Of a stretch of 24,404 nt of DNA, positions 5,300 to 16,204 are shown one piece after another. The position numbers and the translations under genes were made by a program. Below the pieces are notes generated by a model. It was given only the letters and a program-made list of their open reading frames with translations. It did not search any database and was not told the DNA's origin. The stretch lies in assembly GCA_023250585.1 (NCBI GenBank), contig JAHFAK010000018.1, positions 1 to 24,404 on the forward strand, written 5' to 3'. This DNA comes from Deltaproteobacteria bacterium (GTDB lineage: Bacteria > Bdellovibrionota_F > JAHFAK01). Positions within the stretch are counted from its first letter, which is position 1, and every line of letters starts with the position of its first letter.

Positions 5300-6292
5300 T
5301 TATCGACAATAACTCTTCCACTTATTAGGAATTAAAGTATAAAAATTGGGCAAAATAAGATTCCATATCTGACAAAAATTGTTCGCTTTACATGGATTTA
5401 GATAAGTATATATTTGATCTGACTTATCAAAGTAAGAATTGTTTTTAGAATCAATAAAAACAATAGCAGATATACTTTTATTTTTCGCTGTATATAAAGA
5501 AAAAAGGTTTTTTCTACCTAAATATTTTAACATTTGATTGTTTTTTACTCCTATTTCATAGTTACCAAAAATTGCATCAAAAATATGGTCTGTTTCAATT
5601 AAAATTGAACTATTATGAGAAATAATTAAGATATTATGATTATTATTTGATATTGGAGTCTCAGAAAAAGATTCTTTAGATTGCTTTAAATAATTATTCA
5701 ATTTCTTCCTGATAGAATCAATGTTTACCTCCCCACCATAGTGTGTTATGCCTATTTTTATTTCTGATTTCTTATGAGGATAAAATTTATAATAAATTTT
5801 ATCCTCATAAGAATAGTTCGTATCATATTTTATATTTTCTAAATTTGACTTTAACGCATTAATAAACTTATTGATGTCAGACTTATTAAAATCACTTAAA
5901 ATTTTTAGGTCTAATAACAATGAAAAGTTACTATTTTCAAATTCTTTTTCAATTGTTTTCTTTAAAGTATTTATATCTTGTTCGTTTATAATATTCTCTA
6001 TCAATTTAATTTGCATATTTAGTTTATGACCATCTACCTCTATTATTAGATCAGGAGTTTTTTTATTATCTTTCCTGTAAGGTTCATACTGAATATTTTT
6101 TATTCCTTTTTTATCAAAGTAATTGATTAAACATAGTTCTAATATAAAAGATGCAAAATTTTCGCCTCGTTCATTAAAAATATTTTTAATAAGATTAGGA
6201 AATCTATGCTCGTATTTTTTAATCATCTGATCTATCTTTACAAGATATGCCTCATCTGCTTTTGGAAATAATTTGTTAATCATATTATTCAT
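5300..6292 (-). CDS. Hypothetical protein with PD-(D/E)XK nuclease-like motifs
   Basis: I do not recognise a named family. Near the N-terminus there is a glutamate in FILEL, then TPDLIIEVDG and, about ten residues later, NMQIK. This E / PD...E(V)D / QxK layout fits the PD-(D/E)XK nuclease core seen in restriction and repair enzymes; the match is by eye only. The rest is lysine/asparagine-rich with no clear motif. Codon use is far more AT-rich than in the neighbouring genes, which suggests horizontal transfer, and it sits just 3' of a tRNA gene. The frame is open to an ATG at 6322, but a TATAAT-like box directly abuts that ATG, so I prefer the ATG at 6292 (MNNMINKLFPK); no strong RBS decides it. 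An exact 21-bp inverted repeat lies inside the gene. Confidence 0.6.
   Translation of the reverse strand: MNNMINKLFPKADEAYLVKIDQMIKKYEHRFPNLIKNIFNERGENFASFILELCLINYFDKKGIKNIQYEPYRKDNKKTPDLIIEVDGHKLNMQIKLIENIINEQDINTLKKTIEKEFENSNFSLLLDLKILSDFNKSDINKFINALKSNLENIKYDTNYSYEDKIYYKFYPHKKSEIKIGITHYGGEVNIDSIRKKLNNYLKQSKESFSETPISNNNHNILIISHNSSILIETDHIFDAIFGNYEIGVKNNQMLKYLGRKNLFSLYTAKNKSISAIVFIDSKNNSYFDKSDQIYTYLNPCKANNFCQIWNLILPNFYTLIPNKWKSYCR
5769..5813. repeat. Perfect 21-bp inverted repeat inside a coding region
   Basis: Arms 5769-5789 and 5793-5813 are exact reverse complements around a 3-nt centre. The arm contains CTTATGAGGATAAAATTTA. It is read through in frame (YEDKIYYKFYPHKK) within the AT-rich nuclease-like gene and would form a very stable hairpin in its mRNA. 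Confidence 0.9.
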
Positions 6293-6331
6293 GGAATCAC
6301 ACTTATTCTTATAAAAAATCATATTATAGTA

Positions 6332-6404
6332 AGCCAGGAAGCGGGATCGAACCGCCGACCTGCTGATTACGAATCAGCTGCTCTACCAACTGAGCTATCC
6401 CGGC
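6332..6404 (-). tRNA. tRNA-Thr (anticodon CGT)
   Basis: A complete 73-nt cloverleaf on the minus strand. The 7-bp acceptor stem GCCGGGA/TCCTGGC has one G-T pair. The D arm contains AGCTCAGTTGGTAGAGC. The anticodon arm is GCTGA-TTCGTAA-TCAGC with CGT at positions 34-36 (decodes ACG), and the T arm carries GGTTCGATCC. The discriminator base is T and no 3' CCA is encoded. Confidence 0.96.
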
Positions 6405-6515
6405 TTTCTACTACGCTCCTTCGGAGCTTCGCAGAACGAGTTTTGAAACAACTAACGTTACTCAAATCAACCTTGTCCTGCGTAGTTCCGAAGGAACGAA
6501 GCAGGATCCCGGCTT
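6397..6515. mobile_element. Small palindromic element with 10-bp direct repeats at the 5' end of tRNA-Thr
   Basis: ATCCCGGCTT occurs at 6397-6406 (the first bases of the tRNA gene, complement) and again at 6506-6515. The roughly 99 bp between them start and end with related hairpins in opposite orientation: CTCCTTCGGAG near 6416 and TTCCGAAGGAA near 6486. Over about 26 bases the ends match as inverted repeats with about five mismatches. This is the layout of a MITE-like insertion with a target duplication, but a chance 10-mer cannot be excluded. No coding capacity. Confidence 0.45.
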
Positions 6516-6607: not shown

Positions 6608-7984
6608 ATGTTTTCTATGTTCGGCAAAATTTACGTAGCATTTATTATAATTTTTATTCTTCTCACATTTTCTCTTCAAGCAGGAGAGGAAAAGAATCCC
6701 ACCCCCAAAATATTAAATCTTAATGAGTGTATTGCTCTGGCGGTAAAAAACAATCTTGAAATCAAAGTAGAAGATTCAAATATCGAACTTTTCCAAGAAA
6801 AGAAAAAATTTATCGAAGGCAAAAAGATCTTGCCCCAATTTACCATGGAGCATTTAATTGGCCCAGTTCCTGATGCTACAGGAGATATCTTTACTGACCC
6901 ATCATCATTTGATCTGAATATTGATCACATTACTGAAGATCTTGGCGTTTTTTATAAATTTGAAGTTAAAGCTGTTCAGCCTATTTATACTTTTGGAAAA
7001 ATTTCCAGCCTTGAAAATATTGCAAAACTTGGTGTTGATGTTGCTGAACTCAAAAAAGGAGAAAAACACGCTGATATTATTTCAAAAGTAAGCACCGTGT
7101 ATTATTTAATTAATATGCTCAATAATCTTCAAACTATTATCGATGATGGACGAGAAAAATTAGGCGAAGCAAAAAAGAAAGTAACTTCTCTCCTCGAAAA
7201 GGGCTCTACAAAGGTAAGTATTTTTGATGAATATAAGATTGAAGTTTTTGAATTAGAGCTCGACAAAAACGAATTAGAAGTACAATCAAAAAAGACAATT
7301 GCAATCAATGGACTCAAAGCGCTACTTGCAATTGATTATGATTTTGAAATTGAGGAAATTACTAAAAAGCCTGATGAATACGATCTAAAAGATTTCGAGT
7401 TTTATCAGCAAGAAGCGCTAACAAAACGTCCCGATTTTCAACAACTCGAAAAAGCTCTTAAAATTAGGGAAAATCAAACGACAATTGGCGTTGCTAAATT
7501 TCTTCCCGATATTTTTGCTGGTGGATTATTTCGTTATGGGATAGCTCCAGGCAGAACCGATCAGCATAATCCTTTTGTAAAAGATGATTTCAATTATCTC
7601 GTAGGCGGCGTAGGAATTGGACTTAAGCAAGATCTTGATTTTTGGAGTACCGATCGCGAATACAGACAAGCAAAAATTGAACTTCAAAAATTAAAAAATC
7701 AAAAACAGTTAGCGTTAAGTGGTATTAAACTCGAAGTCAGTAAAAATTATGAATCAGTGATGAGTGAAAAGAAAAAATTCGAAGTTGCAAAAGAATCGAT
7801 TCGTACCACCAGAAAATGGCTCACGCAGGCTTTGAATGGTTTTGAAAACTTTGGCACCAATGATGTAAAGGAAGTCAAAGATGCGTTTATTGAATATGCA
7901 AAAGCACGAAAAGAATTTTATGCAACTATTTTTGAATTTGAAAAACAAAGAATTGAACTAGAAAAGAGTACAGGAACGATCTAG
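6608..7984 (+). CDS. TolC-family outer-membrane efflux protein
   Basis: 458 residues, the usual size for an outer-membrane factor that joins an inner-membrane pump and an adaptor to form an export channel. A signal peptide is visible (a hydrophobic stretch from about residue 9 to 26 ending in LQAGEE). Two OEP-type repeats of long amphipathic helices follow; each opens in the usual way (LNLNECIALAVKNNLEIKV near the N-terminus, ALTKRPDFQQLEKALKIRE in the second half). The ATG at 6608 and one at 6617 are both possible; both leave the signal peptide intact and neither has a clear RBS. No adaptor or pump gene is adjacent; the next gene makes membrane lipid, so the partner must be elsewhere. Confidence 0.85.
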   Translation: MFSMFGKIYVAFIIIFILLTFSLQAGEEKNPTPKILNLNECIALAVKNNLEIKVEDSNIELFQEKKKFIEGKKILPQFTMEHLIGPVPDATGDIFTDPSSFDLNIDHITEDLGVFYKFEVKAVQPIYTFGKISSLENIAKLGVDVAELKKGEKHADIISKVSTVYYLINMLNNLQTIIDDGREKLGEAKKKVTSLLEKGSTKVSIFDEYKIEVFELELDKNELEVQSKKTIAINGLKALLAIDYDFEIEEITKKPDEYDLKDFEFYQQEALTKRPDFQQLEKALKIRENQTTIGVAKFLPDIFAGGLFRYGIAPGRTDQHNPFVKDDFNYLVGGVGIGLKQDLDFWSTDREYRQAKIELQKLKNQKQLALSGIKLEVSKNYESVMSEKKKFEVAKESIRTTRKWLTQALNGFENFGTNDVKEVKDAFIEYAKARKEFYATIFEFEKQRIELEKSTGTI

Positions 7985-7993
7985 TATTTCTCA

Positions 7994-8069
7994 TGTCATT
8001 GCGAGCATAGCGAAGCAATCTCTTGATTCGCTATAGATTGCTTCGGAGCTTATGCTCCTCGCAATGACA
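7994..8069. repeat. Palindromic intergenic repeat (TGTCATTGCGAG type)
   Basis: TGTCATTGCGAG at 7994-8005 is mirrored by CTCGCAATGACA ending at 8069. Inner sequences AGCAATCT and AGATTGCT also pair, giving a long imperfect stem with a short AT-rich loop. It begins 10 bases after the efflux gene stop and ends just before the next gene, so it may also act as a transcript end or mRNA stabiliser. Similar CATTGCGAG palindromes recur in many bacterial genomes. Confidence 0.85.
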
Positions 8070-8094: not shown

Positions 8095-8769
8095 ATGCCC
8101 GAACAAGAAGTAAAAAAAATTCGTGATTCAAATATGATTAGCGACAGCATTCGTGATTGGTGGATAGGAGAAGTCAATAAACCAATCATCGATTACTGTA
8201 TTAAAAATAAAGTTTCGCCTGATGTACTTACACTGACTGGCGTTGCCATTAATGTTATTGCCGCACTTTTCTTTTGGCAAGGTTGTTTTGTCTTAGCAGG
8301 ATTTTGCATTATCATTGGAAGCAACTTCGATTTACTCGACGGAATTATTGCACGCAGTCTTCATGTAGATAGCCAAAACGGCGCTTTCTTTGATTCAGTA
8401 ACGGATCGTTATGCCGACGCAATTCTCTTTTTCGGCCTCATTGGGTATTATCAAAATTCATGGGTTATGGTTATTGTGCTTGCCGCACTTTTAGGATCCT
8501 TTATGGTGAGCTACTCAAAAGCCCGCAGCGAATCCTTAGGCATTAAGTGCGATGTAGGCCTTATGCAACGACCTGAACGAATCCTCTATCTTGGGCTTGG
8601 CTCAGGATTCAGTGGTTTAATTTCAATTAGCTTGTCACCTTTTTTCCCAAAAGGTTACGAAGTTCCACAATATCTTCTTATTTGTATTCTTATCATTCTT
8701 GCAATTTTTACCAACATTACTGCCATCGATCGTATTCGCTATAGCTTGAATAAATTGAAAAACCCGTAA
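8095..8769 (+). CDS. CDP-alcohol phosphatidyltransferase family protein
   Basis: Integral membrane enzyme that transfers a phosphatidyl group from a CDP-linked lipid to an alcohol in phospholipid synthesis. The catalytic motif D-x2-D-G-x2-A-R-x8-G-x3-D-x3-D is complete: D79, D82, G83, A86, R87, G96, D100 and D104 in the 224-residue form. About six hydrophobic segments follow the pattern of the family. Which alcohol is used (glycerol phosphate, serine, inositol phosphate or other) cannot be read from the motif. I start at the ATG at 8095 because GGAG (8081-8084) lies 10 bases upstream. The in-frame ATGs at 8077 and 8080 abut the palindromic repeat and have no RBS. Confidence 0.88.
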   Translation: MPEQEVKKIRDSNMISDSIRDWWIGEVNKPIIDYCIKNKVSPDVLTLTGVAINVIAALFFWQGCFVLAGFCIIIGSNFDLLDGIIARSLHVDSQNGAFFDSVTDRYADAILFFGLIGYYQNSWVMVIVLAALLGSFMVSYSKARSESLGIKCDVGLMQRPERILYLGLGSGFSGLISISLSPFFPKGYEVPQYLLICILIILAIFTNITAIDRIRYSLNKLKNP

Positions 8770-8971: not shown

Positions 8972-10719
<1,748 letters not shown>

Positions 10720-11989: not shown

Positions 11990-12772
11990 ATGTGGTCAAT
12001 TGGGGGCAAGCAACTCAAAGGTCGGCTCATGATTGGTTCAGCGCTCTACCCTTCTCCGGAAATTATGACTGAAGCAATACAATCATCAAAAAGCGATATC
12101 GTTACAGTCTCCCTTCGTCGACAATCTCCACACGATAAAGCTGGCCAAAAATTTTGGGAACTCATTCAAAGTTTATCGATTAATATTCTGCCCAATACCG
12201 CCGGTTGTAAAACAGTCAAAGAAGCAATCGCAATTGCTCACATGGCGCGAGAACTTTTCAAAACAAACTGGATTAAACTTGAAGTTATTGGAGATGACTA
12301 CACACTTCAGCCCAATACACTTTTACTTGTTGAAGCTGCTCGTGAACTTAATCGCCAAGGCTTTGAAGTATTTCCGTATACAACTGAAGATCTTGTAGTT
12401 GCTGATTACTTGGTAGAAGCTGGATGTAAAACCCTTATGCCATGGGGATCTCCCATTGGTTCAGGCAAGGGTCTTCTCAATACCTTTTTGCTCAAGACTC
12501 TTCGTTCGCGATTTCCTTCTGTTAATCTTATTCTCGATGCGGGTATTGGAACACCATCTCATGCAACACAAGCGCTGGAACTTGGTTTTGATGGAGTTCT
12601 CATTAATACCGCAATTGCCAAAGCCCACGATCCAATAAAAATGGCACATGCTTTTTATCATGCAGTAGAAGCTGGCCGATTAGGCTATGAAGCTGGACTT
12701 ATGGCATCGCGTGATCTTGCAACGCCGAGTACCCCAACTTTGGGAACACCTTTCTGGCATCAGGAAAAATAA
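11990..12772 (+). CDS. thiG: Thiazole synthase ThiG
   Basis: TIM-barrel enzyme that joins deoxyxylulose phosphate, dehydroglycine and ThiS-thiocarboxylate into the thiazole. 260 residues, full length. The Schiff-base lysine is K96 in [10 protein letters not shown], and the phosphate-binding loop [10 protein letters not shown] and [13 protein letters not shown] are present. The C-terminus [12 protein letters not shown] is canonical, so this copy is the functional one. It starts 2 nt after thiS with GGAGG 6 nt upstream. Its last 174 bases plus 84 bases of downstream sequence (12599-12856) are repeated in altered form at 14000-14235, and the coding end again at 15685-15820, flanking an accessory island. 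Confidence 0.96.
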
Positions 12773-12856
12773 GATTAATATTTTGGATCAAGACTAAAAA
12801 TTGCGCGGATTCGGGTAGACTGAGATAATTTTACCTTAAGCATAAGACACCAGAAA
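12599..12856 (+). repeat. thiG-end repeat, copy 1 (in the intact gene)
   Basis: Covers the last 174 bases of thiG and the next 84 bases, up to CAGAAA at 12856, where similarity with copy 2 stops. It is 258 nt long and keeps the 22 bases missing from copies 2 and 3. It also has GGACTT and GGAACACC where the other two have GGCCTT and GGAACGCC. Confidence 0.92.
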
Positions 12857-12907
12857 GACAAATGGTGGGGACCGACATATGGAGACATTTAGTAGGGGGC
12901 ACATAGG

Positions 12908-12943
12908 AAAACAAGGAATTAGTAGATTTTAATTCCTTGTTTT
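12908..12943. terminator. Bidirectional terminator-like hairpin
   Basis: Perfect 13-bp arms AAAACAAGGAATT (12908-12920) and AATTCCTTGTTTT (12931-12943) around a 10-nt loop, with A and T runs at the ends. It overlaps the last codons of the MNT gene and lies downstream of thiG, so it could stop transcription from both sides. Confidence 0.7.
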
Positions 12944-13248
12944 CTTATGATTTTTCCGAGGATAATGCTTTTTTGGAAAGCTTCGGGACTATAGCCAATC
13001 GGTTCTATGCGCGGATCAACATAGCGAGTTTCACGCCAGAGGAGTTTTTCGTTTTCATCCCAGTTTGTCCGAAATCGTTCAGAAATAATACAGATATCAA
13101 TATCGCTCTCTTGATGGAATGTCCCTGTGGCATATGAACCGAAGAGGAAAGCGGCTTTGATAGGAAATCCTATTTGTATGAGATGTCCTATATATTTTTG
13201 AGCTTTCTTCTTTACTCTTTCAACTTGTTTTTTCTTAGTTTGAGACAT
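12919..13248 (-). CDS. MNT-domain nucleotidyltransferase (antitoxin of a HEPN/MNT pair)
   Basis: 109 residues of the minimal nucleotidyltransferase fold. The core motif GSYATGTFHQESDIDICI shows the GS and the metal-binding DxD; the third acidic residue is probably in RIEPIGY. In MntA/HepT-type systems this protein neutralises the HEPN RNase, in studied cases by adding AMP groups near its active site. The start ATG at 13246-13248 lies inside the 3' end of the HEPN gene (37-nt overlap), so the two are translationally linked, with the HEPN gene first. The C-terminus overlaps a hairpin terminator. The pair sits directly behind thiG, between two copies of the thiG end. Confidence 0.85.
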   Translation of the reverse strand: MSQTKKKQVERVKKKAQKYIGHLIQIGFPIKAAFLFGSYATGTFHQESDIDICIISERFRTNWDENEKLLWRETRYVDPRIEPIGYSPEAFQKSIILGKIIRKQGIKIY

Positions 13249-13628
13249 AAATTATTATGGAGTTTTTTTATTTTTGTCAGATAATCTTGGGTATATGCTT
13301 TCGTACATTGTTTGTAGAATTGTAATTTCTCATCAGGGTATCGCGTACGAATGTTGAATCGATTTACTTCAGCGAGTAAATTCCATTCTTCTTCTGATAG
13401 AAGGAGCTTTGCATCTTCTGCAAGTAACACGAGATTATGTGTGTAGCGAGCTTGTTTTTTTAATACCTCAACTGCATGTGCTTTAAGGACTTTTTCCAAG
13501 ACAATATGAGCAAAAAATAGAGAATCACTATATCGACGATTTTTAAATAAACTATTCATAGTCTCATAATCATGGCGGGCTGTTGCTATCCAATATGAAA
13601 TTATTTTTTTTATTTCATTGGTATTCAT
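13212..13628 (-). CDS. HEPN-domain protein (probable toxin of a HEPN/MNT pair)
   Basis: 138 residues, all helical, with the HEPN pattern: YWIATARHDYETMNSLFKN, then RYSDSLFFAHIVLEKVLKAH, then ARYTHNLVLLAED. The R-x2-H in RYTHNL corresponds to the conserved (R)xxxH/TH region of the PF05168-type HEPN family; spacing differs from the strict Rx4-6H toxin motif, so RNase activity is likely but not proven by sequence. It precedes and overlaps the MNT gene. A TATAAT box on the minus strand (13641-13636) is only 7 nt from the ATG, which would give a leaderless or nearly leaderless transcript. Confidence 0.82.
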   Translation of the reverse strand: MNTNEIKKIISYWIATARHDYETMNSLFKNRRYSDSLFFAHIVLEKVLKAHAVEVLKKQARYTHNLVLLAEDAKLLLSEEEWNLLAEVNRFNIRTRYPDEKLQFYKQCTKAYTQDYLTKIKKLHNNLCLKLRKNKLKE

Positions 13629-13635
13629 AGTATTT

Positions 13636-13641
13636 ATTATA
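13636..13641 (-). promoter_or_regulatory. -10 box of the HEPN/MNT operon
   Basis: TATAAT on the minus strand, 7 nt before the HEPN start codon, so transcription is expected to begin at or next to the A of the ATG. No good -35 is visible. Confidence 0.45.
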
Positions 13642-13689
13642 ATAAGTATATTTGATTTTTAGTATTGAGTAAAGGGTTAGAAACGAAAG

Positions 13690-13718
13690 GACCGAAACGT
13701 GCCCGGCAACTTTCGGTC
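13690..13718. repeat. Stem-loop between the HEPN gene and the transposase remnant
   Basis: GACCGAAA (13690-13697) and TTTCGGTC (13711-13718) are exact complements around a GC-rich 13-nt loop. It lies 60 nt upstream of the HEPN gene and could be the edge of the decayed insertion sequence next to it; function unknown. Confidence 0.5.
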
Positions 13719-13766
13719 GCTAATTTAGAAGATATCCTATGATTAAATTTTGGAGTAACTCCAGTT

Positions 13767-13919
13767 ATGAAAGTATTCTTGACTTACAAACCTGATTTGA
13801 ATGAGTACATATATAAATACAATCATGAAAGAACCAATCAAGGAAAACGGTGTAATGGAAATACTCCCTATCAAACTTTCCTTGACGGTATCAAGGTTTT
13901 TGAGGAAAAAGTGATTTAG
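13767..13919 (+). pseudogene. 3' remnant of an insertion-sequence transposase (rve/DDE type)
   Basis: An open frame of 50 codons ends at TAG 13917-13919 and encodes NEYIYKYNHERTNQGKR, then NGNTPYQTFLDGIKVFEEK. The pattern YN(N/H)ER..QGK.C.G.TP...FLDG is the C-terminal signature of integrase-core transposases of the IS481/IS3-like type. The catalytic DDE part is missing, so it is a relic. It lies on the opposite strand to the HEPN/MNT pair and 80 nt before copy 2 of the thiG end. It is the only trace of a mobility gene in the island. Confidence 0.75.
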
Positions 13920-13999
13920 TTTTTACTTTACTGAACATCACATGAGTTGTTTTCGCTAGTCAATTTGCTCATTGTTCAGAAAGTTCTAAACTTGTTCAA

Positions 14000-14235
14000 C
14001 TCATCAATACCGCAATGGCCGAAGCTCATGATCCAATAAAAATGGCACATGTTTTTTATCATGCTATGAAGCTGGCCTTATGGCATCACGTGATCTTGCA
14101 ACGCCGAGTACCCCAACATTAGGAACGCCTTTCTGGCATCAGGAAAAATAAGATTAATATTTTGGATCAAGACTAAAAATTGCGCGGATTCGGGTAGACT
14201 GAGATAATTTTACCTTAAGCATAAGACACCAGAAA
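14000..14235 (+). repeat. thiG-end repeat, copy 2 (decayed)
   Basis: 236 nt matching 12599-12856 from CTCATCAATACCGC to CAGAAA, including the 84 bases after the thiG stop. One 22-nt stretch is absent (between TATCATGC and TATGAAGCTGG), which shifts the frame, so it cannot encode a working ThiG end. Several single-base differences are unique to this copy (GAAGCTCATG, CATGTTT, ATCACG, AACATTAGG). Confidence 0.92.
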
Positions 14236-14414
14236 TGTAATACCTGAGGGAACCAAATACCTCGAGGTGGTTTTCGTACTACATCTCGTATATCATTTTC
14301 ATTGTAGATTTTATAAAGCCATCGTATTCCTTAATTATTCTTATTGTGGACAAAACATCTATCATAATACGTCAATAGTTTCATCAAACTACTGGGTGTT
14401 TTTAAACAAAAGTT

Positions 14415-14463
14415 AATTTTTACGTCAAAAATTAATTGATTATTCAATTTTTACGGGTATAAT
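14415..14463 (+). promoter_or_regulatory. Promoter and candidate operator of the AAA_14 ATPase gene
   Basis: TTGATT (14436-14441), a 16-nt spacer and a perfect TATAAT (14458-14463) lie just before the ATG at 14470, so the transcript would start at or beside the start codon. AATTTTTACG occurs twice (14415-14424 and 14446-14455), 31 nt apart. The first also forms a palindrome with the following AAAAATT (7-bp arms). These repeats flank the -35 and are good operator candidates. Confidence 0.55.
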
Positions 14464-14469
14464 TGAGAT

Positions 14470-15618
14470 ATGATTAAAAGATTACTCGATTTGACTTGTT
14501 TTAAGCATTCATTGTTTTTATTTGGTCCACGTCAGGTAGGAAAATCGTATCTCATTAAAAACACGCTATCTCCTGATTTGTACATAAATCTTTTGGTCAA
14601 CGAAGAGTACTTGCGATATTCAAAAAATGTATCACTGCTCTTTGCTGAAATTAAAAAGATTAAAAAAGAAAAAATGCTTGTTGTTATCGATGAAATTCAA
14701 AAATGCCCAGAGCTTTTAAATGAAGTACACCATGCTCTTGAAGATATTCGAACAGTACAATTTATTCTCACCGGTTCGAGTGCGAGAAAATTAAGGCGGG
14801 CAGGAGTAAATTTACTTGGAGGTCGGGCTATTACCCTTCATTTATACCCTCTTACGAGCGTAGAGTTAGGAGAACGCTTCACTATAGACGATGCACTCCT
14901 TTATGGAACAATTCCTAATATTGTTTTGGAAGATACAGTAGAAGATAAAAGGAGATTATTAAAAAGTTACCTTGAAACATACCTCAAAGAAGAAATCCAT
15001 GATGAAGCTTTGACGAGAAATATGCCCGCATTTTCTCGCTTTTTAGAGTTAGCAGCTTTTGAAAATGGGAATTTACTCAACTATCAAAATATTGCCCGTG
15101 AGGTAGGCGTAGCTTCACGGACGATTAAAGAATATTTTACAATTTTAGAGGATACGCTTATTGGATATTTTCTTTATCCCTACACAAAATCTCATAGACA
15201 AAAACTCGTGGCACATCCAAAATTCTATTTTTTTGATCCTGGAGTTATCAATGCGCTTAAAAATCAACTTTCGTCTTACTTTATTCCAGGCTCTCCTCCA
15301 TATGGAATGGCATTTGAACATTTTGTGATGATAGAAATTGAACGCATGCTTTCATATCACGAGCGCGAAGTGAAACGATCATTTTTTAGAACTACCGATG
15401 GTGCTGAAGTCGATTTAATTCTCGAGTTTGCAAATGAACTATGGGCGATTGAAATTAAATCATCTGACGCTCCTCAAATGAAAGATCTTGGTGGCCTTAA
15501 GAGCTTTATAAAAGATCATCCCTACAAAAGGGCAATCTGTCTTTGTCAAACGCCTCGGCCATACGTAATAGACTCAATCGAATTTTTGAATTGGAGAGCA
15601 TTCTTACAAGAACTCTGA
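14470..15618 (+). CDS. AAA_14 / DUF4143 ATPase
   Basis: 382 residues, the usual length for the family. The N-terminal AAA_14 domain has Walker A GPRQVGKS (residues 19-26), Walker B MLVVIDEIQKCPE (about 68-80) and a sensor block FILTGSSARKL. The C-terminal DUF4143 domain ends with the nuclease-like AEVDLILEFANELWAIEIKSS, whose EVD...EIK recalls a PD-(D/E)XK core. The family is widespread in many copies per genome, and its function is not established. There is no conserved partner gene beside it. It is bracketed by copies 2 and 3 of the thiG end, with its own promoter and a terminator-like hairpin after it, so it forms a self-contained cassette. Confidence 0.92.
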   Translation: MIKRLLDLTCFKHSLFLFGPRQVGKSYLIKNTLSPDLYINLLVNEEYLRYSKNVSLLFAEIKKIKKEKMLVVIDEIQKCPELLNEVHHALEDIRTVQFILTGSSARKLRRAGVNLLGGRAITLHLYPLTSVELGERFTIDDALLYGTIPNIVLEDTVEDKRRLLKSYLETYLKEEIHDEALTRNMPAFSRFLELAAFENGNLLNYQNIAREVGVASRTIKEYFTILEDTLIGYFLYPYTKSHRQKLVAHPKFYFFDPGVINALKNQLSSYFIPGSPPYGMAFEHFVMIEIERMLSYHEREVKRSFFRTTDGAEVDLILEFANELWAIEIKSSDAPQMKDLGGLKSFIKDHPYKRAICLCQTPRPYVIDSIEFLNWRAFLQEL

Positions 15619-15640
15619 CGAAAAATGTGAAAAAGACGGG

Positions 15641-15684
15641 AAAAGTGGCTGTCAGCTCGCCGTCAAAAGACGTCAGTCACTTTT
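15641..15684 (+). terminator. Terminator-like hairpin after the AAA_14 gene
   Basis: AAAAGTGGCTG (15641-15651) pairs with CAGTCACTTTT (15674-15684), with one G-T pair, followed by a T run (TTTTTT at 15681-15686). The large loop holds a smaller GTC-AAAA-GAC hairpin. It lies 22 nt after the ATPase stop and touches copy 3 of the thiG end. Confidence 0.7.
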
Positions 15685-15820
15685 TTGCAAAAGCCCACGA
15701 TCCAATAAAAATGGCACATGCTTTTTATCATGCTATGAAGCTGGCCTTATGGCATCGCGTGATCTTGCAACGCCGAGTACCCCAACTTTGGGAACGCCTT
15801 TCTGGCATCAGGAAAAATAA
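15685..15820 (+). repeat. thiG-end repeat, copy 3 (decayed)
   Basis: 136 nt matching the coding end of thiG, from TTGCAAAAGCC to the stop TAA, where similarity ends exactly. It has the same 22-nt deletion and the same GGCCTT and GGAACGCC variants as copy 2, but agrees with copy 1 where copy 2 has its private changes. It is frameshifted and non-functional. Confidence 0.92.
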
Positions 15821-15838: not shown

Positions 15839-16057
15839 TTAGCTCTTATCAAATAGTGAATCAATGTGTTTAGCAGTTACATACTCATCCGGCTTTGATT
15901 CAGAAATTTTTTTAATTTCTTTAATATCTCGTAAATCTTCAATTTTTTCTAAAACGAGTCTTTTTATAGTACTCGAAAAATCCATTTTGTAATAGTTTAA
16001 AATTTCTCTCAATGCCTTTGTTTCTTTTTCATTAAAGCGAATAGTTTTTGCTGTCAT
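15839..16057 (-). CDS. Ribbon-helix-helix antitoxin-like protein
   Basis: 72 residues. The N-terminal part fits a ribbon-helix-helix DNA-binding domain: strand KTIRFN, helix EKETKALREILNYYKM and helix SSTIKRLVLEKIEDL. A basic/acidic tail (KPDEYVTAKHIDSLF) would wrap a RelE-type toxin. The start ATG at 16055-16057 overlaps the TGA of the RelE remnant just upstream, and AGGAGG 12 nt before it lies inside that remnant. It therefore appears to be an intact antitoxin left after loss of most of its toxin. The family resembles DUF6290/RelB-like antitoxins; I am not certain of the exact one. Confidence 0.75.
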   Translation of the reverse strand: MTAKTIRFNEKETKALREILNYYKMDFSSTIKRLVLEKIEDLRDIKEIKKISESKPDEYVTAKHIDSLFDKS

Positions 16058-16182
16058 GGCTTATAAATTCCTCCTCTTGGACCAATATCTTCTACATAGA
16101 TTGTTTCTTTATCCATATGAAATAAAGCACGATAAGAGCCTATTCTCAAACGAAAATATTTATACGGTCCTTTTTCTATGGA
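16054..16182 (-). pseudogene. C-terminal remnant of a RelE/ParE-type toxin
   Basis: A 42-codon open frame, too short to be a full toxin, encodes PYKYFRLRIGSYRALFHMD followed by KETIYVEDIGPRGGIYK. This is the C-terminal half of a RelE-family mRNA interferase, with the typical LRIG-YRALF strand. It begins straight after an in-frame TAA (16183-16185) with no start codon, so about the first half of the gene is missing. Its TGA overlaps the antitoxin ATG (toxin first, antitoxin second). The break falls between this remnant and the oxidoreductase gene end and may mark the right edge of the accessory island. Confidence 0.75.
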
Positions 16183-16204
16183 TTACGTATGTCAAGTTCC
16201 TATT

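Follow-up and report, generated by a model that had tools for sequence, protein, structure and literature searches.

Copies of 3′ gene ends bracket toxin–antitoxin and AAA_14 cassettes at thiG and other genes of a Deltaproteobacteria bacterium draft genome

How do small cassettes that carry no mobility enzyme come to lie between repeated ends of a host gene? The question is raised by a 24,404-nucleotide stretch of DNA from a Deltaproteobacteria bacterium (contig JAHFAK010000018.1 of assembly GCA_023250585.1, analyzed at its full length and called the window here). In this window, the 3′ end of thiG, the gene for thiazole synthase, is present three times, and the copies enclose a HEPN/MNT gene pair and an AAA_14/DUF4143 ATPase gene. 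The same signature was found at other genes of the genome. We read the triple thiG end as the scar of two insertion-duplication events and the process behind it as one that acts at many gene ends, a reading to which we assign a probability of roughly 58%. The pattern suggests that cassettes lacking a mobility enzyme enter chromosomes by recombination at a shared gene end.

The thiG gene itself (positions 11990–12772, + strand) is intact, encodes 260 amino acids, and matches the Pfam family ThiG with an E value of 4e-98; its 3′ end would be the anchor for recombination. Self-comparison of the window returned exactly the three copies, all on the + strand, that an earlier note made from the sequence alone had reported, and at the coordinates given there. 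Copy c1 (12599–12856) is the functional end of the intact gene together with 84 nucleotides of downstream sequence, and c2 (14000–14235) and c3 (15685–15820) are frameshifted remnants, as the note had stated. Identity amounts to 87% over 258 columns between c1 and c2 (E = 3e-92), to 84% over 158 columns between c1 and c3 (E = 8e-49), and to 95% over 130 columns between c2 and c3 (E = 9e-55). The longest exact run between any of the copies is 108 bp.

The earlier note had overlooked that, compared with c1, c2 and c3 have in common a 22-bp deletion (located at 14064/14065 in c2; 2-bp GC microhomology) and also two synonymous substitutions. Because the two remnants carry one common deletion, they are more closely related to each other than to c1, and either one of them derives from the other or both derive from a common damaged end. 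c2 differs from c1 at 11 coding positions, of which 9 are third codon positions, and it continues for 84 nucleotides beyond the thiG stop codon with no difference from c1 in this non-coding part. c3 terminates precisely at the stop codon.

A search for thiG ends elsewhere, as the earlier note had proposed, found no further copy in this genome, and a thiG end on plasmids or phages was rejected: plasmids gave just 70% matches to the thi genes of two Piscirickettsia plasmids, phages gave none, and the deletion-variant signature of c2 and c3 was not found in viral contigs. The nearest relatives of ThiG in the genome collection are gammaproteobacterial (Thiofilum with 64% and Oleispira with about 60% identity), which suggests that the thi gene cluster may have been acquired horizontally.

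The genome is a metagenome-assembled draft of 2.24 Mb in 164 contigs with scaffold gaps and 96.7% completeness, and the window is its contig C54. We surveyed 1.20 Mb, about half of this one draft, in two sets. The first comprised 40 stretches, most of them centered on DUF4143 or HEPN matches, and amounted to 510 kb with the window counted in; the second comprised a further 60 stretches selected without regard to cassettes. Each stretch was screened for local direct repeats, and genes were called mechanically. Repeat pairs with one genic and one non-genic copy nearly always represented the 3′ end of the gene, with a cassette in between.

In total, nine complete genes possess downstream copies of their 3′ ends on the same strand, with duplication lengths from about 42 to 258 bp. 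Besides thiG, these are truA (bracketing MNT/HEPN), rpsG (AAA_14/DUF4143), lepA (two small open reading frames (ORFs) without a Pfam match), a pta-family gene (a PIN toxin and a small upstream ORF), dapA (a Fic protein and a second ORF), a DeoC/LacD-type aldolase gene (a weakly PIN-like gene and a 56-amino acid ORF), and pilD and nrdB (a DUF4160/DUF2442 pair each). Where contig C143 ends, a third nrdB end adjoins an AAA_14 gene. In a tenth gene, of which contig C110 holds the 3′ part only, the end is repeated beyond a cassette of HicA, a dehydrogenase, and AAA_14/DUF4143. Judged by family matches, which are the basis of all functions named here, the cargo is putatively toxin–antitoxin-like, Fic, or AAA_14/DUF4143, and not restriction-modification. 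The cassettes lie between conserved genes and have no mobility genes of their own according to the ORF lists and Pfam. The earlier note had seen no integrase at thiG, and no recombinase was found in any of the brackets.

The bias toward downstream 3′ ends was assessed with 818 frames of at least 150 codons, whose last, first, and middle 150 bp were each searched against their own stretch. For 3′ ends, this search returned ten local non-genic copies from nine genes (thiG contributed two), and each copy lay downstream of its gene on the same strand; among the 818 frames there was no upstream or inverted copy of a 3′ end and no copy of a gene middle. The 5′ windows gave seven copies, which had no uniform orientation and in several cases coincided with dispersed repeats. 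Extension of the end test to ORFs of 50–149 amino acids was noisy and yielded mainly dispersed repeats. Stretch L162 contains the sole clear same-strand duplication on the 5′ side, upstream of a gene (7076–8038 and 8543–8671, 88% identity over 130 bp); an HU-like gene lies between the copies, and the arrangement is possibly a mirror image of the 3′-end pattern.

Cassette-centered stretches from three further genomes were also examined. In G001, which belongs to the same class, AAA_14/DUF4143 lies between two copies of a small gene's end, each of which finishes at TGA (stretch L211). In the unrelated genome G030, the end of a 2891-amino acid frame likewise brackets AAA_14/DUF4143 (L219), and six stretches of G012 held no convincing case. 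The pattern thus recurs at least twice outside the genome studied here and is not private to this species. The earlier note had likened the thiG end to an insertion hot spot. Its view that each incoming unit enters at the end of a gene and duplicates it there agrees with these results, whereas thiG is no special insertion site, given eight other complete genes and, in other genomes, two loci or more. In two of the stretches from the further genomes, the DUF4143 gene has a remnant of its own end upstream (L225 of G030, 9113–9191; L210 of G001, 1238–1282), an arrangement that would result if one cassette had displaced another or been added on top of it.

The differences between the copies are informative about their origin. 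Across the trimmed coding cores, 26 differences are synonymous and 6 are non-synonymous. Random change predicts 9.1 synonymous differences among the 32, and a count of 26 was not attained in any of 20,000 simulations; the excess remains significant (P = 2e-5) even if half of the change is assumed to have accrued in the selected gene. In individual genes, the synonymous share is 8/8 for pta, 3/3 for lepA, and 4/4 for pilD. Most remnants are still in frame, and those of dapA, C110, and G030 encode recognizable, diverged C termini (e.g. KLVDKLAVVR vs KLVDKLAIVR). For thiG c3, the aldolase gene, dapA, lepA, and pilD, as well as the G001 gene, similarity ends at the stop codon or within two bases of it, as is expected between homologues whose intergenic sequences differ. 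A fresh duplicate of the resident end would decay irrespective of frame, and the synonymous excess therefore indicates that decay of a duplicate did not produce these differences. Each pair instead looks like two alleles, both of them once functional, which departs from the duplicated target end that the earlier note had considered.

In the reading that we prefer, a diverged strain or species would supply DNA in which a small selfish cassette lies behind that donor's own version of the 3′ gene end. This molecule would join its own ends, or would already be circular, and one homologous crossover within the gene end would integrate it. The outcome would be a live gene with a complete end, followed by the cassette and by the old end as a downstream remnant. 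At thiG, the second unit would have entered at the already duplicated end; reuse of the same end would lead to c2 and c3 sharing their deletion. Such insertions would be kept because the live gene is unharmed and because toxin–antitoxin cargo resists loss. Homologous recombination, which the earlier note had named as a possible mechanism, fits both the structure and the allele-like divergence. When DNA carrying a lacZ end was conjugated into Escherichia coli, the products were mostly those of single crossovers, with 109–950 bp of the lacZ end duplicated, and the most frequent route was a single crossover of a circularized, trimmed molecule (PMC3240628). In pneumococcus, natural transformation also yields duplications by pairing at repeats (PMC3784515). 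The genome studied here encodes the competence gene ComEC, and transformation would be one conceivable route of entry.

Several points weigh against this recombination between alleles. Neither an empty site nor a donor was seen, and the sole relative from the same phylum that was compared, a single genome, lacks thiG. Some copies measure only about 45 bp, which is short for a crossover that depends on RecA; the homology present at the time of the exchange may, however, have extended farther. Several loci come from stretches that were picked for their nearness to cassettes; those of the aldolase gene, pilD, and nrdB fell in stretches selected without regard to them. The coding cores were trimmed by hand, and the ratio of 26:6 depends on this trimming. 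The cores of truA, rpsG, and nrdB (42–51 bp) are identical, which fits a simple target duplication equally well. At thiG, seven differences are private to c2, against none private to c3, and the last 108 bp of c2 are identical to c1, so that a second exchange (gene conversion) must be assumed; the identity over this segment points to a later exchange between c1 and c2.

A long target duplication made in place, in which a staggered break or a template switch copies the resident 3′ end beyond the cassette, would produce copies that are identical at first. We consider this explanation rather unlikely for the loci as a whole, even though the same anatomy, with variable duplications of ∼100 bp around transposase-free cargo, is known from the summaries of such insertions in PMC3874152, PMC3031569, and PMC1643837, and the identical cores of truA, rpsG, and nrdB agree with it. 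It does not lead one to expect a synonymous excess of 26:6 in a copy that was non-functional from birth, nor the in-frame remnants of dapA, C110, and G030 with their conservative protein changes, nor similarity that so often ends at a stop codon. Identity of the repeats at birth is not what is seen where the copies differ, and the three identical cases do not decide the matter.

That the remnants are all downstream is also consistent with attL and attR, i.e. with site-specific integration of cassettes that use the gene end as attachment site, carry a substitute end, and depend on a recombinase that acts in trans or has been lost. Integrating elements that target gene ends bring substitute ends with synonymous changes, e.g. 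e14 and phage 21 at icd. The genome has three matches to PF00589 (tyrosine recombinases), but two of these are in putative XerC/XerD-sized frames of 299 and 310 amino acids and the third is in a 1020-amino acid frame; the brackets hold no recombinase, and the genome has no match to PF00239 (serine recombinases), by which resolvase-type recombination was rejected as well. Moreover, nine unrelated genes would demand about nine specificities, and the duplication lengths vary, which makes site-specific integration improbable. The likeness to integrase sites at tRNA, tmRNA, or guaA genes that the earlier note had drawn is not supported by these recombinase searches, and the sites share no gene family. 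Slightly less probable still is the decay of old tandem gene duplications into which cassettes were transposed later. The genome is rich in repeats, and cassette 1 at thiG contains a scrap of an insertion sequence (IS), but decaying tandem duplicates should retain 5′ ends and middles no less frequently than 3′ ends, whereas only downstream 3′ ends were found, and no transposase or inverted repeats common to the cassettes were found. An assembly artefact or a mixture of strains, finally, is very improbable, and assembly error, which the earlier note had named as a refutation of its reading, is unlikely to account for the repeats. The assembly is indeed fragmented and gapped, and two of the cases, pta and C110, are found at the ends of contigs. 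However, the overlap between contigs is about 120 bp, and repeats of 121 bp border the scaffold gaps, so that exact runs of at most 108 bp could be resolved by the assembly; in addition, the copies can be told apart by their variants, most brackets are internal to their contigs, and the same class of cargo recurs from locus to locus.

Recombination between alleles at gene ends shares features with several known systems. Restriction-modification genes of Helicobacter pylori were reported to insert with long and variable target duplications (Nobusato et al. 2000 and Furuta et al. 2010, cited in PMC3874152, PMC3031569, and PMC1643837). As far as the citing articles summarize them, these insertions resemble ours in that a transposase-free cassette with addictive cargo is flanked by direct host copies of variable length on the order of 100 bp. 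They differ in cargo, which here is HEPN/MNT, PIN, HicA, Fic, DUF4160/DUF2442, or AAA_14; moreover, what is copied at our loci is in every case the upstream gene's 3′ end, and the divergence between copies is allele-like. The insertion-duplication of PMC3240628 is similar in that foreign DNA beside a gene end enters by one crossover and duplicates that end, but it was observed in the laboratory with an engineered plasmid, whereas ours is a natural genome-wide pattern. The minimal mobile elements of Neisseria (Saunders and Snyder 2002; PMC3898611) are cassettes that are located between conserved genes and exchanged through homologous recombination. They, too, are whole-gene cassettes without mobility genes, but they replace each other between two conserved flanks, and leftover gene ends are absent from their description. 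With integrative elements at tRNA genes, guaA, and icd, our loci share a gene end that is regenerated on one side and displaced on the other; they lack an integrase in the brackets and a fixed core length and involve many unrelated targets. Our loci are set apart by their cargo, their consistent 3′-end anchor, and a codon-level signature that argues for recombination between alleles. A literature search returned no report of gene-end copies around toxin–antitoxin or AAA_14 cassettes, which is weak evidence given the limited coverage of the search.

Toxin–antitoxin modules are highly mobile, and their route to fixation is unexplained (PMC2654758). Both they and AAA_14/DUF4143 genes are scattered without transposases, and their movement is poorly understood. 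As a tentative extension, which we hold to be less likely than the reading of the thiG locus itself, the process might be a general route by which selfish modules that lack mobility enzymes spread. A conserved gene's 3′ end, carried along with the module, would then serve as a homology ticket into any strain or species sharing that gene, each arrival would leave one remnant, arrivals could stack repeatedly at one site, and the scar could be read from any single genome. The footprint, an allele-like downstream copy of the 3′ end of a neighboring gene, can be searched for in any genome and predicts the sites at which cassettes landed, the order of their arrival, and the approximate relatedness of the donor. 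For the long target duplications of restriction-modification genes, it suggests another interpretation, namely recombination between alleles.

The two cassettes at thiG were assigned as follows. Cassette 1 comprises an antitoxin-type MNT nucleotidyltransferase gene (12919–13248, − strand; NTP_transf_2, E = 1.2e-11) and a toxin-type HEPN-domain gene (13212–13628, − strand; HEPN, E = 8.6e-14). The genes adjoin and both encode the family domains, which is the predicted architecture of a toxin–antitoxin pair; against the MntA antitoxin model, the MNT protein gave a partial match (E = 4e-10) below the model cut-off. The transposase relic of the earlier note corresponds to a 50-amino acid stretch (13767–13919, + strand), probably the C-terminal scrap of an IS transposase, although its sole match is to the integrase-core family rve_2 and sub-threshold (E = 0.012). 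A composite IS was rejected for this locus, which has a single IS scrap, no second copy, and no full copy elsewhere. Cassette 2 is the ATPase gene (14470–15618, + strand; AAA_14, E = 1.4e-23; DUF4143, E = 4.4e-34), and the Pfam matches of both cassettes agree with the cargo described in the earlier note. The terminator attributed to the ATPase gene is visible by eye at 15635–15685, although it is unlisted in a consensus scan, and promoter-like matches, claimed as its own promoter, are no commoner there than by chance. An intact antitoxin-like DUF6290 gene lies just beyond c3 (15839–16057, − strand; E = 1e-11) and may belong to an older insertion; the sequence downstream of it (16060–16190) resembles, by eye, a truncated RelE-type toxin gene.

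A profile search of the genome returned 15 HEPN and 34 DUF4143 matches, the latter a strikingly high number for a draft of this size. A few of these AAA_14 genes sit between copies of dispersed repeats and not between gene ends (L106 and L124). Dispersed repeats also occur in the window. A 29-nucleotide palindrome resembling repetitive extragenic palindromic (REP) sequences (13690–13718) recurs at ∼32 other genomic places, frequently in inverted pairs roughly 30–110 bp apart, and four matches to the Y1-transposase family (C13, C32, C69, and C47) are possible REP-mobilizing enzymes. One arm of a second dispersed family (GGTGGGGACCGACATATG...), found elsewhere in inverted pairs, occupies 12864–12906 and begins 8 nucleotides past the end of the thiG-end homology. 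As moving agents, these two palindromic families were rejected: although they are dispersed and flank some cassettes, the repeats that form the brackets are different ones at most loci. A third dispersed family (GTGCCTATACC...AGTAGCGTCACACC) directly follows the nrdB ends. At truA, a long inverted repeat (gggcagtcacaaaaacctg...caggtttttgtgactgccc) lies within the truncated end of the HEPN gene (L133, 4125–4310) and is apparently another small insertion. Farther upstream in the window, a near-perfect 45-bp palindrome (5769–5813) lies within a 340-amino acid ORF without a Pfam match (5300–6322), and a longer, imperfect palindrome (6400–6512) adjoins tRNA-Thr.

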